Shown here piece after piece: positions 1 to 7,918 of a stretch of 7,918 nt of DNA. The translations under genes were made by a program, and so were the position numbers. The notes below the pieces were generated by a model. It did not search any database. It was given only the letters and a program-made list of their open reading frames with translations, and was not told the DNA's origin. The first letter of the stretch is position 1, and every line of letters starts with the position of its first letter. Source of the stretch: Thermoplasmata archaeon (lineage in GTDB: Archaea > Thermoplasmatota > Thermoplasmata > Thermoplasmatales > Thermoplasmataceae); the NCBI GenBank assembly GCA_021845325.1, contig JAKBRR010000065.1, positions 1 through 7,918 of the forward strand, written 5' to 3'.

Positions 1-843
1 ATATATAGAAAGAATAACCCCTGCCAGAAATATGAATCCTATGAACGAATTTGAGTTGAGAAATGACACCCTTATTGATTTTGGGTCGTCCGGCTTTAAA
101 ATAACATGCTGATAAATGATGAGTATGATAATTACCGTAGCAGCTGCCAGGTAAATATAGGACTTTATGAAAAATGCTATGGACAGAAATAGAGCTCCTG
201 TGACAGCATGAACTGATTCAGAATAGTGAATTCCTTTCTTTATCCCGCTTTTGCTCATAACAGTTTTTAATCCATTTTGCCTGTCATATTCAATATCTGG
301 TATTGTGTATATCATATCAAATCCTGCAATCCATAGACCTGTTGCCAGTATAAGGATATAAATTTCAGGAATCGCAGGGAAAGATGGGCTCACAGCCAGG
401 TAACCTGCCATAACACCCACTCCTATAACCAGACCCATGAAGAAATGACGAAGCATTGTGATTTTCTTGAGAAGTGGATCTATTATGAACAGAGCAAGAA
501 CAATGGGGGATAATTCAAAAACAAGTCTGTTAAGCAAAAAAGCACATGTTTCAAAAAGAAATGCGGATATAACTGTGAACCCGATGGCCTTATTAACCGT
601 GAATGAACCTTTTACGAGAGCCCAGTCTTTCTTCCTTGGATTTATTATATCGTACTTTCTTCCCAGAATCCTGTTTATTGACATACCGGTTGCTCTCGCA
701 AAACTGCCTGCCAATATAACCAGAATGAGAACAAGTGTTCCGGGATAACCGTTGGCTGCTATAAAGCTGCCTGAAACTATGAATGGAACGTCGAATACTG
801 TATGTTCCAGCTTTATATAGTCAGCAATTTCCTTAAATTTCAT
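1..843 (-). CDS. UbiA-family polyprenyltransferase (3' end cut by window edge)
   Basis: Membrane prenyltransferase that attaches a polyprenyl chain to an aromatic acid in quinone synthesis. Translating the minus strand from ATG at 843 gives 281 codons open to the window edge, close to full length for the family (about 290). Hydrophobic segments alternate with short loops through the whole length. The first Asp-rich region reads NRILGRKYDIINPR (residues 57-70), and the KK-T loop reads DPLLKKIT (122-129). The second Asp-rich region, DMIYTIPDIEYDRQNGLKT (176-194), keeps D176, Y179, D183 and D187. The first motif is odd: residue 61, normally Asp in NRxxDxxxD, is Gly, leaving only D65. The start overlaps the UbiD stop by ATGA, so the two are translationally coupled and probably act in sequence on one intermediate. 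The family call is firm. The exact substrate is inference; a menaquinone precursor, as for MqnP, is likely. Confidence 0.88.
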   Translation of the reverse strand, partial: MKFKEIADYIKLEHTVFDVPFIVSGSFIAANGYPGTLVLILVILAGSFARATGMSINRILGRKYDIINPRKKDWALVKGSFTVNKAIGFTVISAFLFETCAFLLNRLVFELSPIVLALFIIDPLLKKITMLRHFFMGLVIGVGVMAGYLAVSPSFPAIPEIYILILATGLWIAGFDMIYTIPDIEYDRQNGLKTVMSKSGIKKGIHYSESVHAVTGALFLSIAFFIKSYIYLAAATVIIILIIYQHVILKPDDPKSIRVSFLNSNSFIGFIFLAGVILSIY

Positions 844-2279
844 TTAATATACCTGCCCAGTATAGCTTCGACCTTTTTAACCACATCCTGATCCATTTCC
901 ATTACGTCAGGCCATCTCCTGTTGAACCCTTCCTCTTTCCACTTCCTGGTTGCGTCTATACCTATCTTTGAGCCAAAGTTAAACATCTCTGAAGCGTGAT
1001 CAAGGGCGTCTGTCTGTGTTCTTGGAACAATCGTAATGTCCCTTGCCGGATCTACTCTGGTTGTCATTGCCCAGATGACCTGTTTTCTATCGTGTATATT
1101 AATATCATCATCAACCACAAGAACAAACTTTGAGAACATAAGTTGTCCTGTTCCCCATATTGAAAACATAACCTTTCGTGCATGTCCCGGATATCTCTTC
1201 TTAATTGAAACTACAACCATGTTGTGGAAAACTGCTTCCTCCATGGTGTTAAGATCCACAATTTCAGGTATTTGTAGTTGAATGAGGGGCAGAAACATCC
1301 TTTCTATGGCTTTTCCCATTGCAACATCCTCATGCCAGAGCTTACCAACTATGGTTGTTGGATAAACCGGATTTTTCTTCTCTATTATCTTCTTTATATG
1401 AAACACAGGAAACTCTTCCTCGAGAGAATAATAGCCTGTGTGATCACCAAATGGACCCTCAATTCTTGTTTCCGACGGATCAACATAGCCTTCCAGAACT
1501 ATTTCTGAATTCATCGGGTATTCAAGGTCTACCGAATTTCCCTTTACAAGATCAATCCTTTTTCCAGATATAAGTCCTGAAAAGGAGAATTCGTCGAATG
1601 GATCCGGAAGAGGAGCAACCGCAGAAAAAATTGTCAGTGGATCTGAACCGATTGTAACGGCAACATCCATAACTTCCTTTTTTTCTCTTGAATCCTGCAT
1701 GTTTTGTGATCCCCCTTTGTGAATCTGCCAGTGCATTCCCAAAGTTTCATTATCATACTTTTGAAGACGATACATTCCCGCATTTCTTTGCCCCGTAACT
1801 GGATTCTTTGTAATAACAATTGGAAGCGTAATGAAGGGCCCTCCGTCCTTTGGCCATGTTGTGCATATTGGATATCTGTCCAGATCAACTTTATCAAGTA
1901 CCTTTGTTGACGAGGGAAGGGATGTGTGTATCTTTGGCCTCAGACCCGAAAGTTCTCTGAGCATTTCCAAACCTCTGGATATCATAGATTCTGATTCTCC
2001 AGGGGGTCTGATCAAATTGCGAAGCTTCATTCCTATGTCATAAGGCTTTTGCCCAAGGATCCATTCCATTTTCCTCTGACCGGAAAACAAATTCCCAATT
2101 ACCGGTATTTGAGAATTTTTAACATTTTGAAAAAGGATAGACTTATTTCTACCTGAATATTCCTCTCTGTCCATAATATATGTAAGTTCCAGGTAGGGAT
2201 CAACTACTTCTTCAACTGATATTAAATCGTTATTCTTCTTAAGAAATGATATGTAATCCTGAAGATCATCAAACGTCAT
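840..2279 (-). CDS. UbiD-family prenylated-FMN decarboxylase
   Basis: Soluble decarboxylase of the UbiD/MqnL type, which removes the ring carboxylate of a prenylated aromatic acid using prenyl-FMN and a divalent metal. The 479 residues match the usual size (450-500). The hallmark catalytic block is EGPFGDHTGYY (274-284), holding the Glu and acidic pair E274/D279 of the active site. The cofactor region includes N166, R171 (MYRLQ) and HWQIH (183-187). The C-terminal half carries the conserved DPARD segment (410-414). The ATG at 2279 has no Shine-Dalgarno site upstream and could be leaderless; an A/T-rich stretch near 2301-2312 lies at TATA distance but is weak. It is the first gene of a two-gene operon with the UbiA homologue. 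The flavin prenyltransferase (UbiX-type) that makes its cofactor is not in the window. Family is certain; assignment to menaquinone synthesis is inferred from the pairing. Confidence 0.93.
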   Translation of the reverse strand: MTFDDLQDYISFLKKNNDLISVEEVVDPYLELTYIMDREEYSGRNKSILFQNVKNSQIPVIGNLFSGQRKMEWILGQKPYDIGMKLRNLIRPPGESESMISRGLEMLRELSGLRPKIHTSLPSSTKVLDKVDLDRYPICTTWPKDGGPFITLPIVITKNPVTGQRNAGMYRLQKYDNETLGMHWQIHKGGSQNMQDSREKKEVMDVAVTIGSDPLTIFSAVAPLPDPFDEFSFSGLISGKRIDLVKGNSVDLEYPMNSEIVLEGYVDPSETRIEGPFGDHTGYYSLEEEFPVFHIKKIIEKKNPVYPTTIVGKLWHEDVAMGKAIERMFLPLIQLQIPEIVDLNTMEEAVFHNMVVVSIKKRYPGHARKVMFSIWGTGQLMFSKFVLVVDDDINIHDRKQVIWAMTTRVDPARDITIVPRTQTDALDHASEMFNFGSKIGIDATRKWKEEGFNRRWPDVMEMDQDVVKKVEAILGRYIK

Positions 2280-2504
2280 TGTTAGTATATTGCATATTAG
2301 AATATCATAATTTGTTCAAACTCTTTTCATTATGACACTTTTAAATGACTTTGAGAAACCATTTTTAATTTTATGGAATAAGGGTTCAAACTTAAATGCA
2401 TATAACCAGCCCTCATCTTCTCCTTAGATCTAACTTTCTAATTTTAATTGAGTTTGAGTTTTTTCGCTAAATCAACAACTCAGTTTCCAGTAAATCGTAA
2501 AGAC

Positions 2505-2514
2505 TATTAATTAA
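2505..2514 (+). promoter_or_regulatory. TATA-like box of the trmB-family gene
   Basis: The sequence TATTAATTAA is centred about 22 bases before the ATG at 2531, with a purine-rich GTAAAGAC just upstream where a BRE would sit. No ribosome-binding site lies between it and the ATG, so a leaderless or nearly leaderless transcript is likely. The assignment rests on spacing and composition only. Confidence 0.4.
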
Positions 2515-2530
2515 CAATGAATCATTAGCA

Positions 2531-3247
2531 ATGGAAGCTACATCCGACAGAATAGATAAAATAACTGAAATGCTCAAAATTCTGGGTTTATCTTCCTATG
2601 AAGCCCAGGGTTTTGCTGCACTGGTTTATCATAACGTTGCTAATGCAGATACCATTGCTGATACAGCGAAAATACCAAGAACGTCTGCTTATAAAGTAAT
2701 GGAATCACTGGTTCAAAAAGGCTTTGCCAGGGAAACCGAGGGGAGGCCAAAAATGTTTAAACTGGAGGATCTTGATATAATAGAAAAGAGATTTCAGGGT
2801 GAAATGAGGGAACTCTTTTCAAAGCTTCATGAGCTGCAGGACATTATGCCTTCAAAGGGTGATCCTCAGTTGATCTATACCATTTACGGCAAGAATGTAG
2901 TTCTTGAAAAACTTGCAGAATTGATCAATCTGGCTGAGCAGGAAATAATAATTTGTACTCCAAGAGTAAAAGACATAAGAACAGAATTAAAGAAGAATCT
3001 GGACAATGCCATGAAAAGAGGAGTAAATGTCATATTTGTTACTCCGCCTAATAAGAGAGTCCCACAGAATGCAAAAGTATTCCGAAAAGAAGGTCTTATT
3101 GCTACGGATATTGTTGTTGATAGATCAAAGGCACTTATTGCCGGAGCGGAGCTTGACGCTTGCGGATTCTCGGATAATCCTGGTCTTTCAATGCATGTAT
3201 ACCAGTTCATACAGATGATAATTGAGAGGAAGGATGAGATTTCATAA
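2531..3247 (+). CDS. TrmB-family transcriptional regulator
   Basis: Archaeal transcription regulator of the TrmB family, which in characterised members senses sugars or other small ligands and represses or activates promoters. The N-terminus holds a winged helix (about residues 10-78): LGLSSYEAQGFAALV is the typical opening helix, and IADTAKIPRTSAYKVMESL (42-60) is the helix-turn-helix, followed by the wing GFARETEGRPKMF. A charged helix (82-105) probably forms the coiled-coil dimer linker. Residues 120-232 fit the phospholipase-D-like TrmB regulatory domain, with strands IIICTPRV and NVIFVTPP. At 238 residues it lacks the long C-terminal sugar-binding extension of the founding TrmB, so the ligand cannot be guessed. 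The ATG at 2531 is chosen because the only nearer upstream ATG (2518) runs into a stop within four codons. It is divergent from the ubiD-ubiA operon and upstream of, but separately promoted from, the endonuclease IV gene. Its target is unknown. Confidence 0.85.
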   Translation: MEATSDRIDKITEMLKILGLSSYEAQGFAALVYHNVANADTIADTAKIPRTSAYKVMESLVQKGFARETEGRPKMFKLEDLDIIEKRFQGEMRELFSKLHELQDIMPSKGDPQLIYTIYGKNVVLEKLAELINLAEQEIIICTPRVKDIRTELKKNLDNAMKRGVNVIFVTPPNKRVPQNAKVFRKEGLIATDIVVDRSKALIAGAELDACGFSDNPGLSMHVYQFIQMIIERKDEIS

Positions 3248-3274
3248 TATATTAAAATTAAGAAAACAAATATC

Positions 3275-3301
3275 ATTGTAGTGATGGTTGAAAACTACAA
3301 T
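3275..3301. promoter_or_regulatory. 27-bp palindrome next to the endonuclease IV promoter
   Basis: A perfect 8-bp inverted repeat, ATTGTAGT (3275-3282) and ACTACAAT (3294-3301), is separated by 11 bases. It lies 28 bases after the trmB-family stop and directly abuts the TATA-like box of the next gene, so it would cover the BRE. It is not followed by an oligo-T run, so an operator is favoured over a terminator. The binding protein is unknown; the adjacent TrmB-type regulator is the obvious candidate. Confidence 0.45.
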
Positions 3302-3313
3302 ACATATTTTATG
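3302..3313 (+). promoter_or_regulatory. TATA-like box of the endonuclease IV gene
   Basis: ACATATTTTATG is centred about 32 bases before the ATG at 3340. This would place the transcript start at or a few bases before that codon. There is no Shine-Dalgarno-like sequence before 3340, in keeping with a leaderless or short-leader message. Confidence 0.4.
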
Positions 3314-3339
3314 TAAAAAGTAATTTTGTTTAATTTGAT

Positions 3340-4197
3340 ATGACACAAAAAATTACGGATATGATCAATTTGGGGGGGCATGTTTCAACAAACGGTGGAA
3401 TTGAACTTTCTCCGGAAAGAGCTGCAAAGTTCTCATTCAGTTCTTTCCAGATATTCTCGAAGAATCAAATGCAGTGGAATGCCAAACCTCTTGAAAAGAA
3501 GGCGATTGACCTCTTTAAGGAATCAAGAAAGGCAAAGAAAATATCAAGTGTCATGATTCACGCTTCTTATTTGCTCAACACTGCCACCAGTGATTCAGGA
3601 TTAAAGGAAAAGGTGAGGGCAGGCCTATCCCTTGAGATAGATAGGGCAGATTTATTAGGGGCAGATCTTTTAACATACCACCCGGGATCAAGGAAAGAAG
3701 CTTCATTAGAAAGAGGAATTCAGAATGTTGTTGAAATCCTCAATTCTGTAATCAGGGAAGACCAGAATGTTAAGGTTTTAATTGAAAATTCAGCAGGACA
3801 GGGAAACAGTGTTGGAAAAACCTTCCAGGAACTTGCATCAATCATAGATGGTGTTCTGTTGAAAGATAAGATAGGCGTTTGCCTTGACACATGTCATGTA
3901 TGGGCTGCAGGTTACGATATCGTTTCTCCTGAAGGATATAAAGAAACCATGGATGATTTAAAATCCAATCTTGGTTCAAAATATCTCCTTGGCTTTCATA
4001 TGAATGACTCAAAAAAAGGGAAGGGTTCAGGGGTAGACAGACATGAACAGATTGGAAAAGGAACTATTGGTCTGGATGGATTCAGGAATTTTATCTTCGA
4101 TGAAGAAATAAGGGGGAAGCCAATGATCCTTGAAACCCCAAAGGGTGAGGATGGATACATGGATGATATAAATGAACTCAATTCAATCTTAAGGTAA
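3340..4197 (+). CDS. nfo: Endonuclease IV (AP endonuclease, Nfo family)
   Basis: Base-excision-repair enzyme that cuts DNA 5' of abasic sites, using a three-zinc cluster in a TIM barrel. All nine family metal ligands can be placed: H74 (MIHASYL), H114 (YHPGS), E149 (IENSAG), D183 and H186 (CLDTCH), H220 (GFHMND), D233 and H235 (GVDRHE), and E265 (LETP). The N-terminal family motif GGHVS (12-16) and FQIFSKNQMQW (36-46) are also present. The 285 residues are normal for the family. The ATG at 3340 fits the TATA spacing. An in-frame ATG at 3361 would begin MINLGGHVS, closer to the usual family N-terminus, and cannot be excluded. The DUF1015 gene follows after nine bases and is probably cotranscribed. 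Nothing suggests truncation, so the protein should be active. Confidence 0.95.
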   Translation: MTQKITDMINLGGHVSTNGGIELSPERAAKFSFSSFQIFSKNQMQWNAKPLEKKAIDLFKESRKAKKISSVMIHASYLLNTATSDSGLKEKVRAGLSLEIDRADLLGADLLTYHPGSRKEASLERGIQNVVEILNSVIREDQNVKVLIENSAGQGNSVGKTFQELASIIDGVLLKDKIGVCLDTCHVWAAGYDIVSPEGYKETMDDLKSNLGSKYLLGFHMNDSKKGKGSGVDRHEQIGKGTIGLDGFRNFIFDEEIRGKPMILETPKGEDGYMDDINELNSILR

Positions 4198-4206
4198 TGA
4201 TATAAA

Positions 4207-5391
4207 TTGATAGTTAAACCGTTTAAGCCTTTCCTATATAATAAAAGTCTGGAAAATGTTGTATCGCCACCATTTGATACCATTCCGGAAGACCAGGAAA
4301 AAGCTCTGCTTAAGATACCTTACAATGTGTCCCACTTAAGCAGACTTACATGGAGCGATGAAAGCTCATACAATTTACTGAAGAGATGGATTTCCGATGG
4401 CGTTCTTGTAAGAACTGATGAACCGGTTATGATAGTTTTGTCCCAGTATTTTAAGCACAATTCAGAAACATTTCAGAGGCTGGGGGTTATCTGCCTTACA
4501 GACATTATATCTGAGGAAAATACAATAAAACCTCATGAAGATACCATCGAAGCTTATGTAATACAGAGACGTCAGCTGATGGAAGCACTTTGGAGTCAGC
4601 TTGAGCCTGTTTTCCTGATTTCATTTGAAAATCAGTTAGAAAAGACCCTTAACAGACTCATATCTGGAAAATTGCCTGATAAAATAATCGAAGAATCTAC
4701 TGGTGTAAAAAATTATATTTATATCATAAAAGAAGAACAGAGCCTCCTTAAAATTCAAGATATATTGAGAGGCAAAAATTCAGTTATCGCGGATGGACAT
4801 CACAGAATAAGAGCTTCCAAGGATCTGTTTGGGTCTGCAAATAGCCAGACAGAAAGAGACTTTTGGAGATATTCCTTAACATATATTACATCCGTCTATG
4901 AGAGGGCGATCAAAATAGGTGGAATCCATAGGATAGTAAAGGACAATAAACACACTACGGCTTCCATATTGCAAAACATTTCAGATGTTTTCCGGGTGGA
5001 AACAATGAATAATTACCACTCTGATGGAGAGATCGTGTTATACGATGGAAGATTCAACACGCTGATACCAATTAAAGAAAATATCAGAAAAGAATTCCTT
5101 GAAGGGAACCTTAAGGGGTTATCATCTCCATTCCTGGTTGATTACTTCGTTTTTAGAAGAACTCTTAACTTGAGTCAGGAGGCAAAGGACAGCCTCATCG
5201 AATATACCAACGACGTTGCTACTGCGATAAATTCAGTTGACAGAAAAAATGCATCATATGCAATTCTTATGCCCGGTTGGGATAAAGAAGAGTTCATGAA
5301 TGAAGTCCTTGCCGGAGAGATCATGCCGCCGAAGTCAACATATTTTTACCCTAAGATTCCTTCAGGTATTGCCATAGAATCTCTTTTGTGA
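4207..5391 (+). CDS. DUF1015 family protein (ParB/SerK-like fold suspected)
   Basis: Conserved protein of unknown function, 394 residues, normal for DUF1015. The TTG start at 4207 is well supported: it yields MIVKPFKPFLYN, the typical opening of the family; an ATG at 4198 hits a stop after two codons; and a weak GGT lies 11 bases upstream. Conserved blocks are VVSPPFDTIP (18-27), the HE pair in IKPHEDTI (107-114), and the family signature IADGHHRIRAS (194-204). The DGHHR box resembles the nucleotide-binding box of ParB/SerK/sulfiredoxin-type proteins, so a nucleotide-dependent phosphotransfer role is conceivable; that is inference, not established. It lies nine bases after the endonuclease IV gene and stops five bases before the tRNA gene, so one transcript could carry all three. 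No membrane segments or signal peptide are visible. Confidence 0.85.
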   Translation: MIVKPFKPFLYNKSLENVVSPPFDTIPEDQEKALLKIPYNVSHLSRLTWSDESSYNLLKRWISDGVLVRTDEPVMIVLSQYFKHNSETFQRLGVICLTDIISEENTIKPHEDTIEAYVIQRRQLMEALWSQLEPVFLISFENQLEKTLNRLISGKLPDKIIEESTGVKNYIYIIKEEQSLLKIQDILRGKNSVIADGHHRIRASKDLFGSANSQTERDFWRYSLTYITSVYERAIKIGGIHRIVKDNKHTTASILQNISDVFRVETMNNYHSDGEIVLYDGRFNTLIPIKENIRKEFLEGNLKGLSSPFLVDYFVFRRTLNLSQEAKDSLIEYTNDVATAINSVDRKNASYAILMPGWDKEEFMNEVLAGEIMPPKSTYFYPKIPSGIAIESLL

Positions 5392-5396
5392 GTCCT

Positions 5397-5469
5397 GCCA
5401 CTGTAGCTTAGCTGGTTGAGCAGCTGATTCGTAATCAGCAGGTCGGGGGTTCAAATCCCCCCGGTGGCT
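5397..5469 (+). tRNA. tRNA-Thr (anticodon CGU)
   Basis: A complete cloverleaf can be drawn by eye. The acceptor stem GCCACTG/CGGTGGC has one G-T pair. The D arm closes GCTT with GAGC, the anticodon stem is GCTGA/TCAGC around the loop TTCGTAA, and the T stem GGGGG/CCCCC surrounds TTCAAAT. The anticodon CGT at 5430-5432 reads ACG threonine codons, and the discriminator is T at 5469. CCA is not encoded and no intron is present. The gene starts five bases after the DUF1015 stop, so its promoter must lie inside that coding region (a TATTTTTA at 5341-5348 is possible) or it is processed from read-through. Its 3' portion is the left attachment site of the element that follows, and it remains intact because the element restored it. 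Confidence 0.96.
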
Positions 5470-5470
5470 T
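5427..5470 (+). repeat. Left attachment repeat (inside tRNA-Thr)
   Basis: This 44-bp copy runs from the last base of the 5' anticodon stem through the discriminator and one further T. It matches 6422-6465 at 43 of 44 positions. Being part of the functional tRNA it keeps perfect T-stem pairing, so it is the copy brought in by the element to restore the gene. Confidence 0.85.
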
Positions 5471-5950
5471 ATATTACAAAAGATTGATCTCTTAACATAG
5501 TGCAAAGCGTTTATTTCCATAATCAACTGATTTTCACTTTCCTGTAAGTATAAATTGAATCAATGTGGTTTCTTCTCTGTTTTGAAGCGTTTTCCATATG
5601 TTTGTTATTGTGATTATTCGTCTACTTAATTATACATAATATTCAGTGTAATATTCATGACAACTTTTCACATTACGAATCTGAATTTTTCACAATAAAA
5701 TTCACAATCATCTGATTTGTACTGACGTTAATTTAATTGATTGAAAATTGCTCTCCTAATTGGAGTAGTCTTATGACTTAGTAGAATTTTCGTACCGAGA
5801 TAAATGTTGTTAAACCATCAGAAATGAAATATTTGTACACCTAAATTATTTCCATAATCAGTGATTTTAACCATTTATGACCAGTGATTGTACATTGGAG
5901 CATAGTTTAATTCAATGACTTAAAAAAAACAATCTAAAAGAAACATTTAT
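5471..5950. other. Non-coding, repeat-rich half of the element
   Basis: No coding sequence of credible length is seen on either strand in these 480 bases. The block carries recurring short motifs. AATCA-TGATT palindromes with one or two central bases occur at 5522-5533, 5706-5717 and 5857-5867, and a half-site (CAGTGATT) recurs at 5882-5889. TTTCCATA occurs three times (5514, 5591, 5849). A longer copy pair lies at 5511-5534 and 5846-5868. AAGCGTTT appears at 5505 and 5585, and TAATATTCA is repeated at 12-bp spacing (5637 and 5649). Such clustering suits recombinase arm sites, replication iterons, or relics of a larger element. Which one cannot be decided from sequence alone. Confidence 0.5.
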
Positions 5951-5954
5951 ATGT
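5944..5954 (+). promoter_or_regulatory. TATA-like box overlapping the small membrane gene's first ATG
   Basis: CATTTATATGT preceded by purine-rich AAAAGAAA is the best BRE/TATA match in the window. It overlaps the ATG at 5951. If it is used, transcription would start near 5975-5977, exactly at an in-frame GTG (5975). A poorer A-rich stretch, CTTAAAAAAAAC (5919-5930), is correctly spaced for the ATG. Confidence 0.45.
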
Positions 5955-6256
5955 ATCCATATCGTATATTAAAAGTGAAAAAAGGGACATTGATTTTAGG
6001 AATTATACTTCTTATAATAGGGGTCGCGCTATTGGGTTTTGGTGCAGTTGCTTACGGTCATTATTCATATAACAGTACACAAATAGCTAATGGTAATGCA
6101 TTAAACAATGCTACTAATAATGCATTAGTAAGCACTCAATTTGGAGATGCTGTTGGTGGTTTCATAGGTGGTGTAATATTTTTTGTAATTGGATTAGTGC
6201 TAATGATAATAGGATTTAAGGGCCAGAGCAAAAAGGAGAAAAAATCTGGACAATAA
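5951..6256 (+). CDS. Small two-helix membrane protein, cargo of the mini-element
   Basis: Unrecognised protein of 101 residues from the ATG. Two hydrophobic helices are clear, residues 14-36 (opening TLILGIILLIIGVALLG) and 67-89 (GGFIGGVIFFVIGLVLMIIG). They are joined by a polar, Asn-rich loop of about 30 residues with two N-glycosylation sequons (N41-S-T and N53-A-T). The tail KKEKK (94-98) and N-terminal lysines 8, 10 and 11 put both ends inside and the loop outside. No signal-peptidase site is obvious. The start is uncertain: a strong TATA-like box overlaps the ATG, and a leaderless GTG at 5975 would give a 93-residue form beginning at KKGTLILG. It is the only gene between the two tRNA-derived repeats and has its own terminator, so it is a self-contained cassette. 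The function is unknown; small hairpin membrane proteins occur in archaeal viruses, plasmids and immunity or toxin roles. Confidence 0.65.
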   Translation: MYPYRILKVKKGTLILGIILLIIGVALLGFGAVAYGHYSYNSTQIANGNALNNATNNALVSTQFGDAVGGFIGGVIFFVIGLVLMIIGFKGQSKKEKKSGQ

Positions 6257-6280
6257 TAGAACAAATCTAATTTACACTGC

Positions 6281-6315
6281 TGAGAATGTGTTTATTACAT
6301 TCTCATAATTTTTTT
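6281..6315 (+). terminator. Hairpin plus oligo-T terminator of the membrane gene
   Basis: A perfect 9-bp stem, TGAGAATGT (6281-6289) with ACATTCTCA (6297-6305), encloses a 7-base loop and is followed within three bases by seven T residues (6309-6315). It lies 24 bases after the membrane-protein stop. Oligo-T is the main archaeal termination signal. Confidence 0.75.
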
Positions 6316-6421
6316 ATTTGCTAACTGATATGATAATTTTATAGCTGTAGAACAACACTATCTAGGAAGTAATTATTGTCCATTAGCCTTTTGACCCTGT
6401 TTCGAAAATGTACAAATTGTA

Positions 6422-6465
6422 ATTCGTAATCAGCAGGTCGGGAGTTCAAATCCCCCCGGTGGCTT
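6422..6465 (+). repeat. Right attachment repeat: displaced 3' fragment of tRNA-Thr
   Basis: A 44-base copy of the tRNA-Thr 3' portion lacking the acceptor 5' strand, D arm and 5' anticodon strand, so it cannot be a tRNA. The one difference from the left copy is A at 6443 for G at 5448. It turns a T-stem G-C pair into A-C, as expected once selection for tRNA function is lost. This marks the original chromosomal 3' end before integration. Confidence 0.85.
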
Positions 6466-6782
6466 CTTGTTGTGAAAGGTGAGTTATAATACTATACCTT
6501 AAGGAATCTTTTGTATAAGCTATTTGTTTCCCGAAATTTTTTAATTGTTAAATTCTCGAAGTACCTGTCGAGGTCAACTCTCTTTTATCAATTAAACACT
6601 GTGATCTAATTTATACCTCTCGCTACATTGCCACTAATACTTCCTTTATTGTGTGGACATTATTGAAATATTCTCAGCCTGAAGACTTTCTTCCTTGAGT
6701 TTTTTTGTAGTTCGATTTATTAAGTAAAAATAATAAGTATAAATTTAAATTACAATTAAATACTACAAAATTATAAGTATTT
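6466..6782. other. Spacer between displaced tRNA fragment and vapB
   Basis: No coding sequence is supported in these 317 bases on either strand. The first part presumably held the original tRNA termination region (a run of six T at 6537-6542 is the best candidate). The last 50 bases are the vapB promoter and operator. The remainder shows nothing recognisable. Confidence 0.5.
6736..6764 (+). promoter_or_regulatory. Promoter region of vapBC
   Basis: Two TATA-like possibilities lie here: TATAAAT (6738-6744), which would give a leader of about 15 bases, and CAATTAAATAC (6753-6763), correctly spaced for a leaderless start at 6783. Neither leaves a ribosome-binding site before the ATG. The second overlaps the left arm of the inverted repeat described separately. 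Confidence 0.35.
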
Positions 6783-6783
6783 A
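6757..6783. promoter_or_regulatory. Candidate VapB operator
   Basis: The perfect 8-bp inverted repeat TAAATACT (6757-6764) and AGTATTTA (6776-6783) has an 11-base spacer and ends on the first base of the vapB ATG. In addition ATAAGTAT occurs as a direct repeat at 6733-6740 and 6773-6780, so the half-site recurs on both sides of the TATA region. Autorepression by the ribbon-helix-helix antitoxin is the usual arrangement for vapBC; the assignment is by position. Confidence 0.5.
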
Positions 6784-7013
6784 TGAACGAAAAAGTCACA
6801 GTATCAGCGAAGATCAGCCGCGAACTTTTGAAAGAAGCCAAAGAAAGAAAGGTTGATATATCCGCCACAATAAGAAAGAGTCTGGAGGAAACCATAAATC
6901 AGAAAAAGCTTGACGAACTTATGCTCCTGATGCAGGAGATACAGCCATGGCTAAAAAAAGTGGGTAAGGATGGTTGGGTAAGCAGCATAAGGGAAAACCG
7001 TGATTCAAGATGA
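6783..7013 (+). CDS. vapB: VapB-type ribbon-helix-helix antitoxin
   Basis: Antitoxin that binds and neutralises the downstream PIN toxin and represses its own operon. The 76 residues are typical. Residues 3-35 fit a ribbon-helix-helix fold: strand EKVTVSAKIS, helix RELLKEAKERK, then DISATIRKSLEETI. The C-terminal part (36-76), rich in Leu, Met, Trp and charge, would wrap around the toxin; QEIQPWLKKVG is a likely contact segment. The ATG at 6783 has no Shine-Dalgarno site. The stop TGA overlaps the vapC start as ATGA, so the pair is translationally coupled. It is the first gene to the right of the displaced tRNA fragment, in keeping with an accessory region. Confidence 0.8.
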   Translation: MNEKVTVSAKISRELLKEAKERKVDISATIRKSLEETINQKKLDELMLLMQEIQPWLKKVGKDGWVSSIRENRDSR

Positions 7014-7390
7014 AAATTTTTGACGCTTCGGCAATATTAAATTTATTGGAAGAAGGCACTTTACCTGATTTTTCAGAATCCGCTACTATTAATCTGGCAC
7101 TTTACGAGATAGGTAATGCTGTGTGGAAACAAGTCCACTTAACAAAAAGATTGAATCAGTCTCAGGGAGAAAAAATAATTCTTTCAGCGTCCTTATTAAT
7201 AGAAAAAATGAAGTATATCAATATAGATGTTGTGAATACGTTGAAAATTGCAGTTAAGGAAGGTCTGACATTCTATGATGCATCTTATATACAAATTGCA
7301 TATTCGACCAGGTCCGAGCTTATCACAGATGATAAGAAACTTCGTGATAAAGCAGAAAAATATGTCGAAACCGCGGGAACATCTGTTTAG
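7010..7390 (+). CDS. vapC: VapC-type PIN-domain ribonuclease toxin
   Basis: PIN-domain Mg-dependent RNase toxin; family members usually cleave tRNA or rRNA. The 126 residues make a full PIN domain. The acidic active-site set is visible: D5 (KIFDASAIL), E33 (LYEIGNAVWK), D90 (LTFYDASYIQIA) and D107/D108 (LITDDKKL). All are present, so the toxin should be active and the module intact. The start at 7010 overlaps the antitoxin stop by ATGA, and the coding frame begins directly with the first PIN strand. It ends at TAG (7388-7390); a strong hairpin follows about 95 bases later. The RNA target cannot be told from sequence. Confidence 0.88.
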   Translation: MKIFDASAILNLLEEGTLPDFSESATINLALYEIGNAVWKQVHLTKRLNQSQGEKIILSASLLIEKMKYINIDVVNTLKIAVKEGLTFYDASYIQIAYSTRSELITDDKKLRDKAEKYVETAGTSV

Positions 7391-7820
7391 GGCTATTATC
7401 GAAAGGTTTTGGATTCAAGTACATCAATTGACTCTAATTGTAGCTTTCAATATGTCCCGTCCAAATAGAATATTAGATCGTTATTTCAGTAGGTACCCTA
7501 TCTACTGAATATTTATTTTGTACTCCACTTATTATTCTTAACCTACGAGTTCCGACACTAATTCTTCCACAGTCAATATTCTGTTAATGGCCATTGTTAA
7601 AAGAGAAAAGAACGAGCTTTGTCGTATTTCCTACTCCTGAAAAATTGGTCATTTCGTCAAGTTCTATGCCTCTACATTTTCTTAAACTCACATGTTCGAA
7701 GACACTAATATTTGGATTAATTTATTTATGCGATTGGACTCGATCAAATAACCTACCAGATCAATTGTTCCACAGAACTTAAAATTGCTTCCTTTAAAAT
7801 GAATTCAAGTTTCCCTTTAA
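7391..7820. other. Gene-poor, possibly degenerate spacer
   Basis: No intact gene is supported in these 430 bases. The left part holds the hairpin at 7485-7509. On the minus strand, 7584-7721 is an open stretch of 45 codons without a good start that contains the phrase GIELDEMTNFSG. It is followed in another frame by MAINRILTVEELVSELVG ending at a stop. These look like broken protein pieces rather than a working gene, and the parent gene is not recognised with confidence. Confidence 0.4.
7485..7520. terminator. Strong hairpin downstream of vapBC
   Basis: An 11-bp stem with one G-T pair, TTCAGTAGGTA (7485-7495) with TATCTACTGAA (7499-7509), has a three-base CCC loop and is followed by T-rich TATTTATTTTG (7510-7520). 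It is the best terminator candidate for vapBC, lying about 95 bases after the vapC stop. It could instead be a relic of a mobile-element end. Confidence 0.5.
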
Positions 7821-7918
7821 TCATTTGTTACTTTCTTTCCTGAATTCTGATATTGCAGCCTTAATTTCATCAACTGAAGCGGAACTTTCCAATGTTGTAA
7901 TATCCCCCGGCAACTGTC
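7821..7918 (-). CDS. C-terminal tail of an acyl/acetyl-CoA synthetase (partial)
   Basis: Only the last 31 residues lie in the window, entering from the right edge and ending at TGA (7823-7821). The tail contains LPGDITTLESSASVDEIKAA, which resembles the C-terminal end of AMP-forming acetyl-CoA or acyl-CoA synthetases, where a GDxTTLED..SV.E phrase follows the catalytic lysine region. Codon use looks like that of real genes in the window. The catalytic domain lies outside, so the assignment depends on this short tail and is moderate. It converges on vapBC across the gene-poor spacer and probably marks the resumption of chromosomal backbone. Confidence 0.5.
   Translation of the reverse strand, partial: QLPGDITTLESSASVDEIKAAISEFRKESNK

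Follow-up and report, generated by a model that had tools for sequence, protein, structure and literature searches.

The DNA described here is a stretch of 7,918 nucleotides from a Thermoplasmata archaeon of the family Thermoplasmataceae (assembly GCA_021845325.1, contig JAKBRR010000065.1, positions 1 to 7,918 of the forward strand), referred to below as the window. It is 98% identical to E-plasma scaffold KI542675.1 across its full length, and represents a segment of a Thermoplasmatales chromosome. The window encodes UbiA, UbiD, a TrmB-type regulator, an AP-endonuclease-type protein, and a DUF1015 protein, followed by a tRNA-Thr(CGU) gene, a small protein of 101 amino acids (aa), and a VapBC-like pair. 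The part behind the tRNA gene, which is the subject of this work, is made of two stacked cassettes delimited by copies of the tRNA 3' end. The left anchor of the locus is the DUF1015 gene (4207..5391; Pfam PF06245 and synteny; all window features given here lie on the forward strand), which adjoins tRNA-Thr on the upstream side in many family members.

The intact tRNA-Thr(CGU), taken as the integration target, occupies 5397..5469, on which ARAGORN and Rfam agree. Its 3' part, from the anticodon loop on, forms the core of the left attachment site (attL; 5427..5470), as defined by the direct repeat and by core alignment. This core of 44 nucleotides (nt) recurs at 6422..6465 with a single mismatch (43/44) and a start-to-start spacing of 995, and the displaced copy is at once the right attachment site (att) of cassette 1 and the left att of cassette 2. 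A sequence-only reading of the window had already recognized the 44-bp repeat, with one copy in an intact tRNA-Thr and one displaced, and had noted that no integrase lies between them; the repeat is as it described, and a profile search detected no tyrosine integrase in the unit. The same reading had taken the locus for a single unit of about 1 kb with a repeat-rich half. One open reading frame of note does lie between the repeats, but a second, VapBC-like cassette runs from the displaced copy to about 7394, and the supposed repeats are mainly an end sequence of about 206 bp (5471-5676) that is common to other units, together with an AT-rich spacer.

Cassette 1 starts with that end sequence, a P'-like left arm (5471..5676) which scores 131.8 bits with nhmmer, the window being in the training set, and whose similarity to the arms of two related loci, L002 and L004, is not reached by any of 200 shuffles. 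The cargo is the 101-aa protein (5951..6256, from the list of open reading frames), with hydrophobic stretches judged by eye to be membrane segments. It has no Pfam match and seven homologues in the protein database, two of them with PF13273; used as a marker, it is present in 7 of 77 family genomes, with a close match in E-plasma (G001) only. A hairpin followed by a T run (6283..6316), read from the sequence by eye, is terminator-like, and a P-like right arm (6359..6421; 27.6 bits with nhmmer, again with the window in the training set) leads up to the displaced core.

The body of cassette 2 (6466..7394) is supported by alignment with G037, a distant member of the family, and with E-plasma. 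It encodes a CcdA/VapB-like antitoxin (6783..7013; PF07362, E 0.00012, just over the curated cut-off) and a VapC-like PIN-domain toxin (7010..7390; PF01850, E 0.00014, just under the curated cut-off). Its probable right att, in a decayed state, lies at 7395..7423, where it was placed by the G037 alignment with 17 of 29 matches counted by eye; the automatic local alignment did not choose this position. From 6422 to the end of VapC, cassette 2 and its att are 83% identical to G037 across 992 bp. The G037 counterpart lies directly at tRNA-Thr, and the alignment stops about 10 nt into the right att of that unit. Elsewhere in the 77 genomes, cassette 2 was found only in E-plasma (97%), on contig C53 of G003 (93%, up to the contig end), and in G077 (75%, toxin-antitoxin part).

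Distance within the family was judged by the identity of the DUF1015 proteins, and those of G037 and the window share 33%. Because the DNA of cassette 2, non-coding parts included, is 83% identical against this 33%, the comparison points to horizontal transfer. The tRNA and left arm of the window are likewise 77-79% identical (72-75% for the arm alone) in G023, G038, and G018, whose DUF1015 proteins are 34-37% identical to that of the window. In G046 (locus L170), homology with the window begins at the tRNA and includes the arm, the upstream DNA not being shared, and the homology between G068 and L002 likewise begins at the tRNA. As a separate observation, one methyltransferase occurs, at 81% DNA identity over 615 bp, behind att copies of two different tRNA-Thr genes, namely tRNA-Thr(TGT) of G012 (L180:5405-6277) and tRNA-Thr(CGT) of G046 (L170:5471-6383).

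Among close relatives, the slot behind this tRNA holds different cargo. A close DUF1015 relative with tRNA-Thr just downstream occurs in four genomes. In E-plasma (L001) the cassette 1 unit is present as in the window, whereas L002, with a DUF1015 protein 95% identical, holds an acetyltransferase (GNAT) unit of 1072 bp flanked by two tRNA 3' ends, and L004 (73% identical) a VapBC-like unit whose right copy has decayed. The contig of the fourth, L003, ends just past the tRNA, and two more contigs of that metagenome-assembled genome (MAG; G003) begin tens of bases before tRNA-Thr. One of these, L167, carries a type I restriction-modification unit of 5.1 kb between two perfect copies, with both flanks matching the window and the right flank corresponding to window positions 6418-6772 at 93%. 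The other, L166, encodes an Nramp transporter and reaches a flank that matches window positions 7757-7918, with no displaced att. The ends of L003, L166, and L167 do not overlap exactly, and the MAG is therefore probably a mix of strains, so that the differing contents pertain to one sample rather than to one strain. On a broader scale, many G003 contigs (C36, C50, C56, C65, C111, C161, C177, and others) begin about 50-80 nt before a tRNA, which suggests assembly branching at tRNA 3' ends and strain variation at many tRNAs.

The survey of the family covered 66 usable tRNA-Thr loci (65 CGT, 1 TGT) from a set of 77 genomes, with 779,636 bp of downstream DNA. The loci were read up to 20 kb each, and many of the contigs end soon after the tRNA. 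Nine of 75 loci had been dropped for having no tRNA-Thr(CGT) by test (L172, L176, L179, L197, L199, L221, L223, L229, and L235). The first 20 regions were picked on any of three grounds (a displaced copy, the left arm, or similarity to tRNA-Thr), and the rest are tRNA-Thr regions from further members of the family, short of the full 77 genomes; the loci are not fully independent, as four come from one MAG (G003), two from G012, and L001 nearly duplicates the window. A displaced copy was counted where at least 29 of 44 positions matched the 3' end of the local tRNA without gaps, a score that misses some, such as a copy at about +1180 in G035. By this measure, 23 of the 66 loci have displaced copies, 27 in total, one of which (L219, 35/44, with no right arm) may be spurious. 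The opposite strand of the same loci has none in 847,806 bp, and chance is therefore excluded; upstream there are also none, a weak control since only 63,286 bp of upstream DNA was available.

Most displaced copies start, by alignment, at the anticodon loop. The unit next to the tRNA measures 0.7-2.5 kb in 19 of the 23 loci. One is shorter, at 0.4 kb, and three are longer, at 4.6, 5.1, and 6.0 kb. Where copies form arrays, they tend to match worse away from the tRNA (43, 40, and 36 of 44 in L174; 43 and 36 in L175), as expected if new units enter beside the tRNA, in arrays that are few. The cargo includes VapBC-like pairs of several types, methyltransferases, an acetyltransferase, restriction-modification systems, and membrane proteins, and one unit (L240) has a weak glyoxalase match. 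VapBC-like genes in the fetched units were assigned by reading the sequence, with PIN domains confirmed by Pfam for the window and L177 only. Among individual loci, a single array in L174 holds two tRNA-Thr 3' ends with a spacing of about 50 bp (L174:3904-3998). In L175 a decayed att is reduced to roughly its last 10 nt (L175:5035-5060), with a left arm following, and this unit is probably two cassettes fused over a lost att. The L239 unit (G067) has, by eye, two frames resembling transposase parts beside a VapC-like gene.

A typical unit has a similar stretch of about 210 bp right of the core and another of about 64 bp left of the displaced core. The ends of 21 units were compared in 210 pairs, with middles of equal length as control and pairs scored as similar at z above 5. 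Of all 210 pairs, 68 were similar in the left 200 bp (5 for middles of that length) and 29 in the right 64 bp (2 for middles). Once 24 pairs with similar interiors had been removed by blastn, the left ends were similar in 64 of the remaining 186 and the right ends in 22, against 1 and 0 for the middles; 14 of the 21 units take part in these similarities on the left and 11 on the right. The loci used to train the nhmmer profiles of the arms also figure among the matches. Outside the training set, the right-arm profile matches L240 (E 8e-8) and L239 (E 1.1e-5), both exactly against the displaced att, and the left-arm profile matches L212, L230, L184:3229, L175:6200, and others.

A sequence model of the left arm, with 13 arms in its training set, gave 37 matches in at least 23 of the 77 family genomes, a lower bound because up to 40 candidates per genome were scored under strict filters. 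Of these matches, 35 have a tRNA-Thr 3' end to their left, one (L175) has a decayed copy there, and one is unrelated; the last, a weak match on an integrase-bearing contig (G041:C66), was rejected as it has no att beside it. In a sample of the class, with seven candidates per genome scored, the model matched at least 20 of 400 genomes, 19 of them in the family and the other a weak match in G188, and blastn at the order level found the arm in 14 of 117 genomes, 13 of them in the family and the other a weak match in G082. The ends define the unit in many cases and not in all, as some units have diverged ends or other ones.

Integrases were sought over frames of at least 60 codons in the 75 loci, using a profile built on 17 tyrosine recombinases of the four closest genomes. 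No tyrosine integrase or fragment of one was detected in any unit, and the two matches obtained both lie more than 16 kb from the tRNA. The integrase gene of some archaeal integrated elements is split by integration; no such fragment of at least 60 codons was found near tRNA-Thr with the same profile. Nor was a parent element for the units seen in the 66 loci, and the searches made for a helper turned up no element that combines an integrase with the ends of these units. E-plasma has four PF00589 genes, none of them near arms. In the four closest genomes, integrases stand beside other tRNAs, namely tRNA-Lys(CTT) and tRNA-Ser(GCT), and, by coordinates, tRNA-Trp in E-plasma.

A scan of viral contigs with the tRNA-Thr 3' end returned eight contigs. 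In three of them (L186:352-1030, L192:1115-1418, and L193:2245-2548), integrase-like sequence (E 1.8e-8 to 1.3e-5) lies immediately ahead of a core whose first base is the same as here, and integrases using such a core therefore exist elsewhere; these three may use the same target in other hosts. As helpers for the cassettes, the viral contigs were rejected: blastn of 24 loci against the eight contigs recovered the tRNA/att part and at most some 20 nt beyond it, with no arm.

The window is interpreted here as holding two stacked cassettes that belong to a non-autonomous, integrative family at tRNA-Thr and are moved by a recombinase acting in trans, with a probability of about 70%. A typical cassette would consist of the tRNA-Thr 3'-end core, a left arm of about 200 bp, one gene or small module, and a right arm of about 60 bp. 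A circle with the core and both arms (attP) would recombine with the anticodon loop of tRNA-Thr, in a reaction catalyzed by a tyrosine recombinase supplied from elsewhere, for which the arms would be the recognition sites. Each arrival would restore the tRNA and displace older cassettes, and the array would grow at the tRNA and decay outward. The sequence-only reading had proposed a minimal non-autonomous element mobilized in trans, and its proposal is supported on anatomy and distribution because cargo in one slot differs, many units share ends where their middles are unrelated, cassette 2 recurs directly at the tRNA of a distant family member, and the units hold no detectable tyrosine integrase; the mobilization itself is inferred.

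Several results weigh against this interpretation. A right-arm profile match precedes only 11 of the 27 displaced copies, leaving 16 with no detectable right arm; a left-arm match follows only 7 of the 27 copies and 21 of the 66 tRNAs; and cassette 2 of the window, whose ends resemble the G037 unit only, has neither common arm. Confidence in the cassette reading is tempered by the fact that only some of the units have arms. An inverted motif common to both arms is not significant, as 561 of 2000 shuffles reach it. Cassette 1 is common to the window and its 98% relative E-plasma, so that no recent movement of it is evident there, and its right att is mutated, with one change in the window and three in L001. 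In E-plasma, across contigs C1-C6 less 155 bp of C6, the arm profiles are strong at tRNA-Thr only, with all other matches at E of at least 0.018. No helper was found, and none of 126 homologues of two tRNA-associated integrases reads into tRNA-Thr.

A variant of the mechanism, unlikely in its specific form, is an integron-like capture in which the anticodon arm of tRNA-Thr acts as a fixed receiver and a host recombinase, possibly Xer, moves integrase-free cassettes that it knows by their arms. The cassette of G046 has the same att core, 44/44, at either end, and in this genome a single intact PF00589 protein (a 305-aa frame) and a broken fragment were found, while G077 has one PF00589 protein; by score and length, the 305-aa protein appears to be Xer-like. 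The Xer proteins of Pyrococcus and Thermoplasma are described as catalyzing integration in vitro (PMC8371274).

An improbable explanation, which the earlier reading had weighed as a deletion scar, is that each unit is the remnant of a larger integrase-bearing element, similar to a cis-mobilizable element (CIME). Decay is certainly real here, as right att copies mutate and L175 looks like two fused units; units of 4.6-6.0 kb exist, and the 16 copies with no detectable right arm could be read in the same way. The scar nevertheless fits less well than a cassette family: neither an integrase nor a fragment of one was detected in any unit, the loci read include no long integrase-bearing island at the tRNA-Thr site, many units keep both ends while their cargo differs, and small modules recur across genomes. 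About as improbable is an exchange of alleles by homologous recombination between conserved flanks, the tRNA and left arm on one side and the right arm and att on the other, with no current site-specific recombinase. The shared flanks could indeed act as homology, and the G003 MAG offers alternative contents after the same tRNA (L166 and L167). However, stacked arrays and displaced cores from the anticodon loop need site-specific integration at least initially, and in G046 the arm is shared in a locus where the homology starts only at the tRNA. A non-coding RNA or a region for tRNA processing, conserved downstream of tRNA-Thr while genes farther on turn over independently, would suit a left arm found nearly always right of the tRNA-Thr 3' end, but it is very improbable, as the left arm is also found behind displaced att copies, 11 of the 27 copies have a separate right arm directly beside them, and RNAalifold gives no consensus structure; since, in addition, Rfam over the window finds tRNA only, the left arm is more likely a DNA site than an RNA.

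Several elements of the cassette family have counterparts in known systems. Archaeal integrases are described as using tRNA-derived att sites of 40-50 bp, with strand exchange at the anticodon loop in the case of IntSSV1, and IntpTN3 and IntpT26-2 as needing sequence beyond the shared core (PMC8371274). The tRNA-Thr units have an att of the same kind, and their displaced copies start where exchange by IntSSV1 is reported; SSV/pNOB8-type elements, however, carry an integrase gene, and none was found in the units. The nearest published description found is that of additive flexible genomic islands, which in Ca. Actinomarinales are cassettes at tRNA genes with tRNA repeats at their ends and exchange across genera (PMC7771536), and which in Methylophilaceae include flexible genomic island 2 (fGI-2), with 20-bp repeats of tRNA-Lys (PMC10872708). 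Two of their features, cassettes behind a tRNA with displaced 3' repeats and cargo that differs at one place between close relatives, recur here, the first in 23 of 66 loci with 27 copies and the second in the window against L002 and L004 and in L166 against L167. Those islands are bacterial, and the descriptions compared mention no conserved end pair, whereas the tRNA-Thr units are archaeal, mostly 0.7-2.5 kb long, and in many cases equipped with arms of about 200 and 60 bp.

CIMEs and their accretion share with the units the kept att sites, an apparent lack of integration genes, and tandem accretion at one tRNA, but they are defined as decayed integrative and conjugative elements (ICEs) or integrative and mobilizable elements (IMEs) (PMC5704250), whereas no trace of an integrase was detected in the units, and they share arms across unrelated cargo. 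Here the att copies are kept and no tyrosine integrase was found, in a search in which conjugation genes and other recombinase types were not sought as such. Tycheposons are likewise cargo elements at tRNA genes, described as 4-200 kb long and carrying a tyrosine recombinase (PMC10872708), unlike the units, which are mostly below 2.5 kb and hold none by the profile. Integron cassettes and clusters of attC sites lacking integron integrases (CALINs) also hold small modules, toxin-antitoxin systems included, between repeated sites, with the newest probably by the fixed site and the integrase elsewhere (PMC11389934). The site used here differs, being a tRNA 3' end with long arms, and no integron integrase IntI was found beside an array, nor any tyrosine recombinase in a unit. 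Integrons have reportedly been found in archaea. In acidophilic archaea, genomic islands at tRNA genes with toxin-antitoxin systems were described in 2025, in a main text that contains neither "tRNA-Thr" nor "cassette" (PMC12302457). The open-license literature yielded no account of arm-sharing cassettes at a tRNA of archaea, which argues only weakly that none has been published.

The usual vehicles of gene flow among archaea are viruses, plasmids, or islands that encode an integrase themselves. At tRNA-Thr, small packages of one or a few genes stack behind a single tRNA gene and are shared between distantly related acid-loving archaea, and the mobile unit, spread through a family of acidophiles, seems reduced to its end sequences and one gene or module. 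This would give integron cassettes a counterpart in archaea that is based on a tRNA gene. The movement of integrase-free islands becomes testable with the sequences supplied, and profiles of the shared ends can be used to locate such cassettes elsewhere.

Other tRNAs provide some minor observations. In E-plasma, 46 tRNAs on C2, C3, and C6 were scanned for displaced 3' ends, which gave 12 rows against 8 for a 5' control; many rows of both scans are one tRNA matching another, and the strongest is tRNA-Thr(CGT). On C3 at about 643-660 kb (L089), tRNA-Asp(GTC) has a 23-nt displaced 3' end some 16.4 kb downstream with two tyrosine recombinases in between, and this interval is probably a conventional large integrated element. 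tRNA-Lys(CTT) at C3:461639-461713 has a displaced copy with 74% identity over 47 nt, 1565 bp downstream, and in G003 and G004 integrases lie directly beside tRNA-Lys(CTT). Finally, in L041, L043, L045, and L052 the last codons of the integrase apparently run antisense into the tRNA 3' end, where the att core would overlap the end of the gene.
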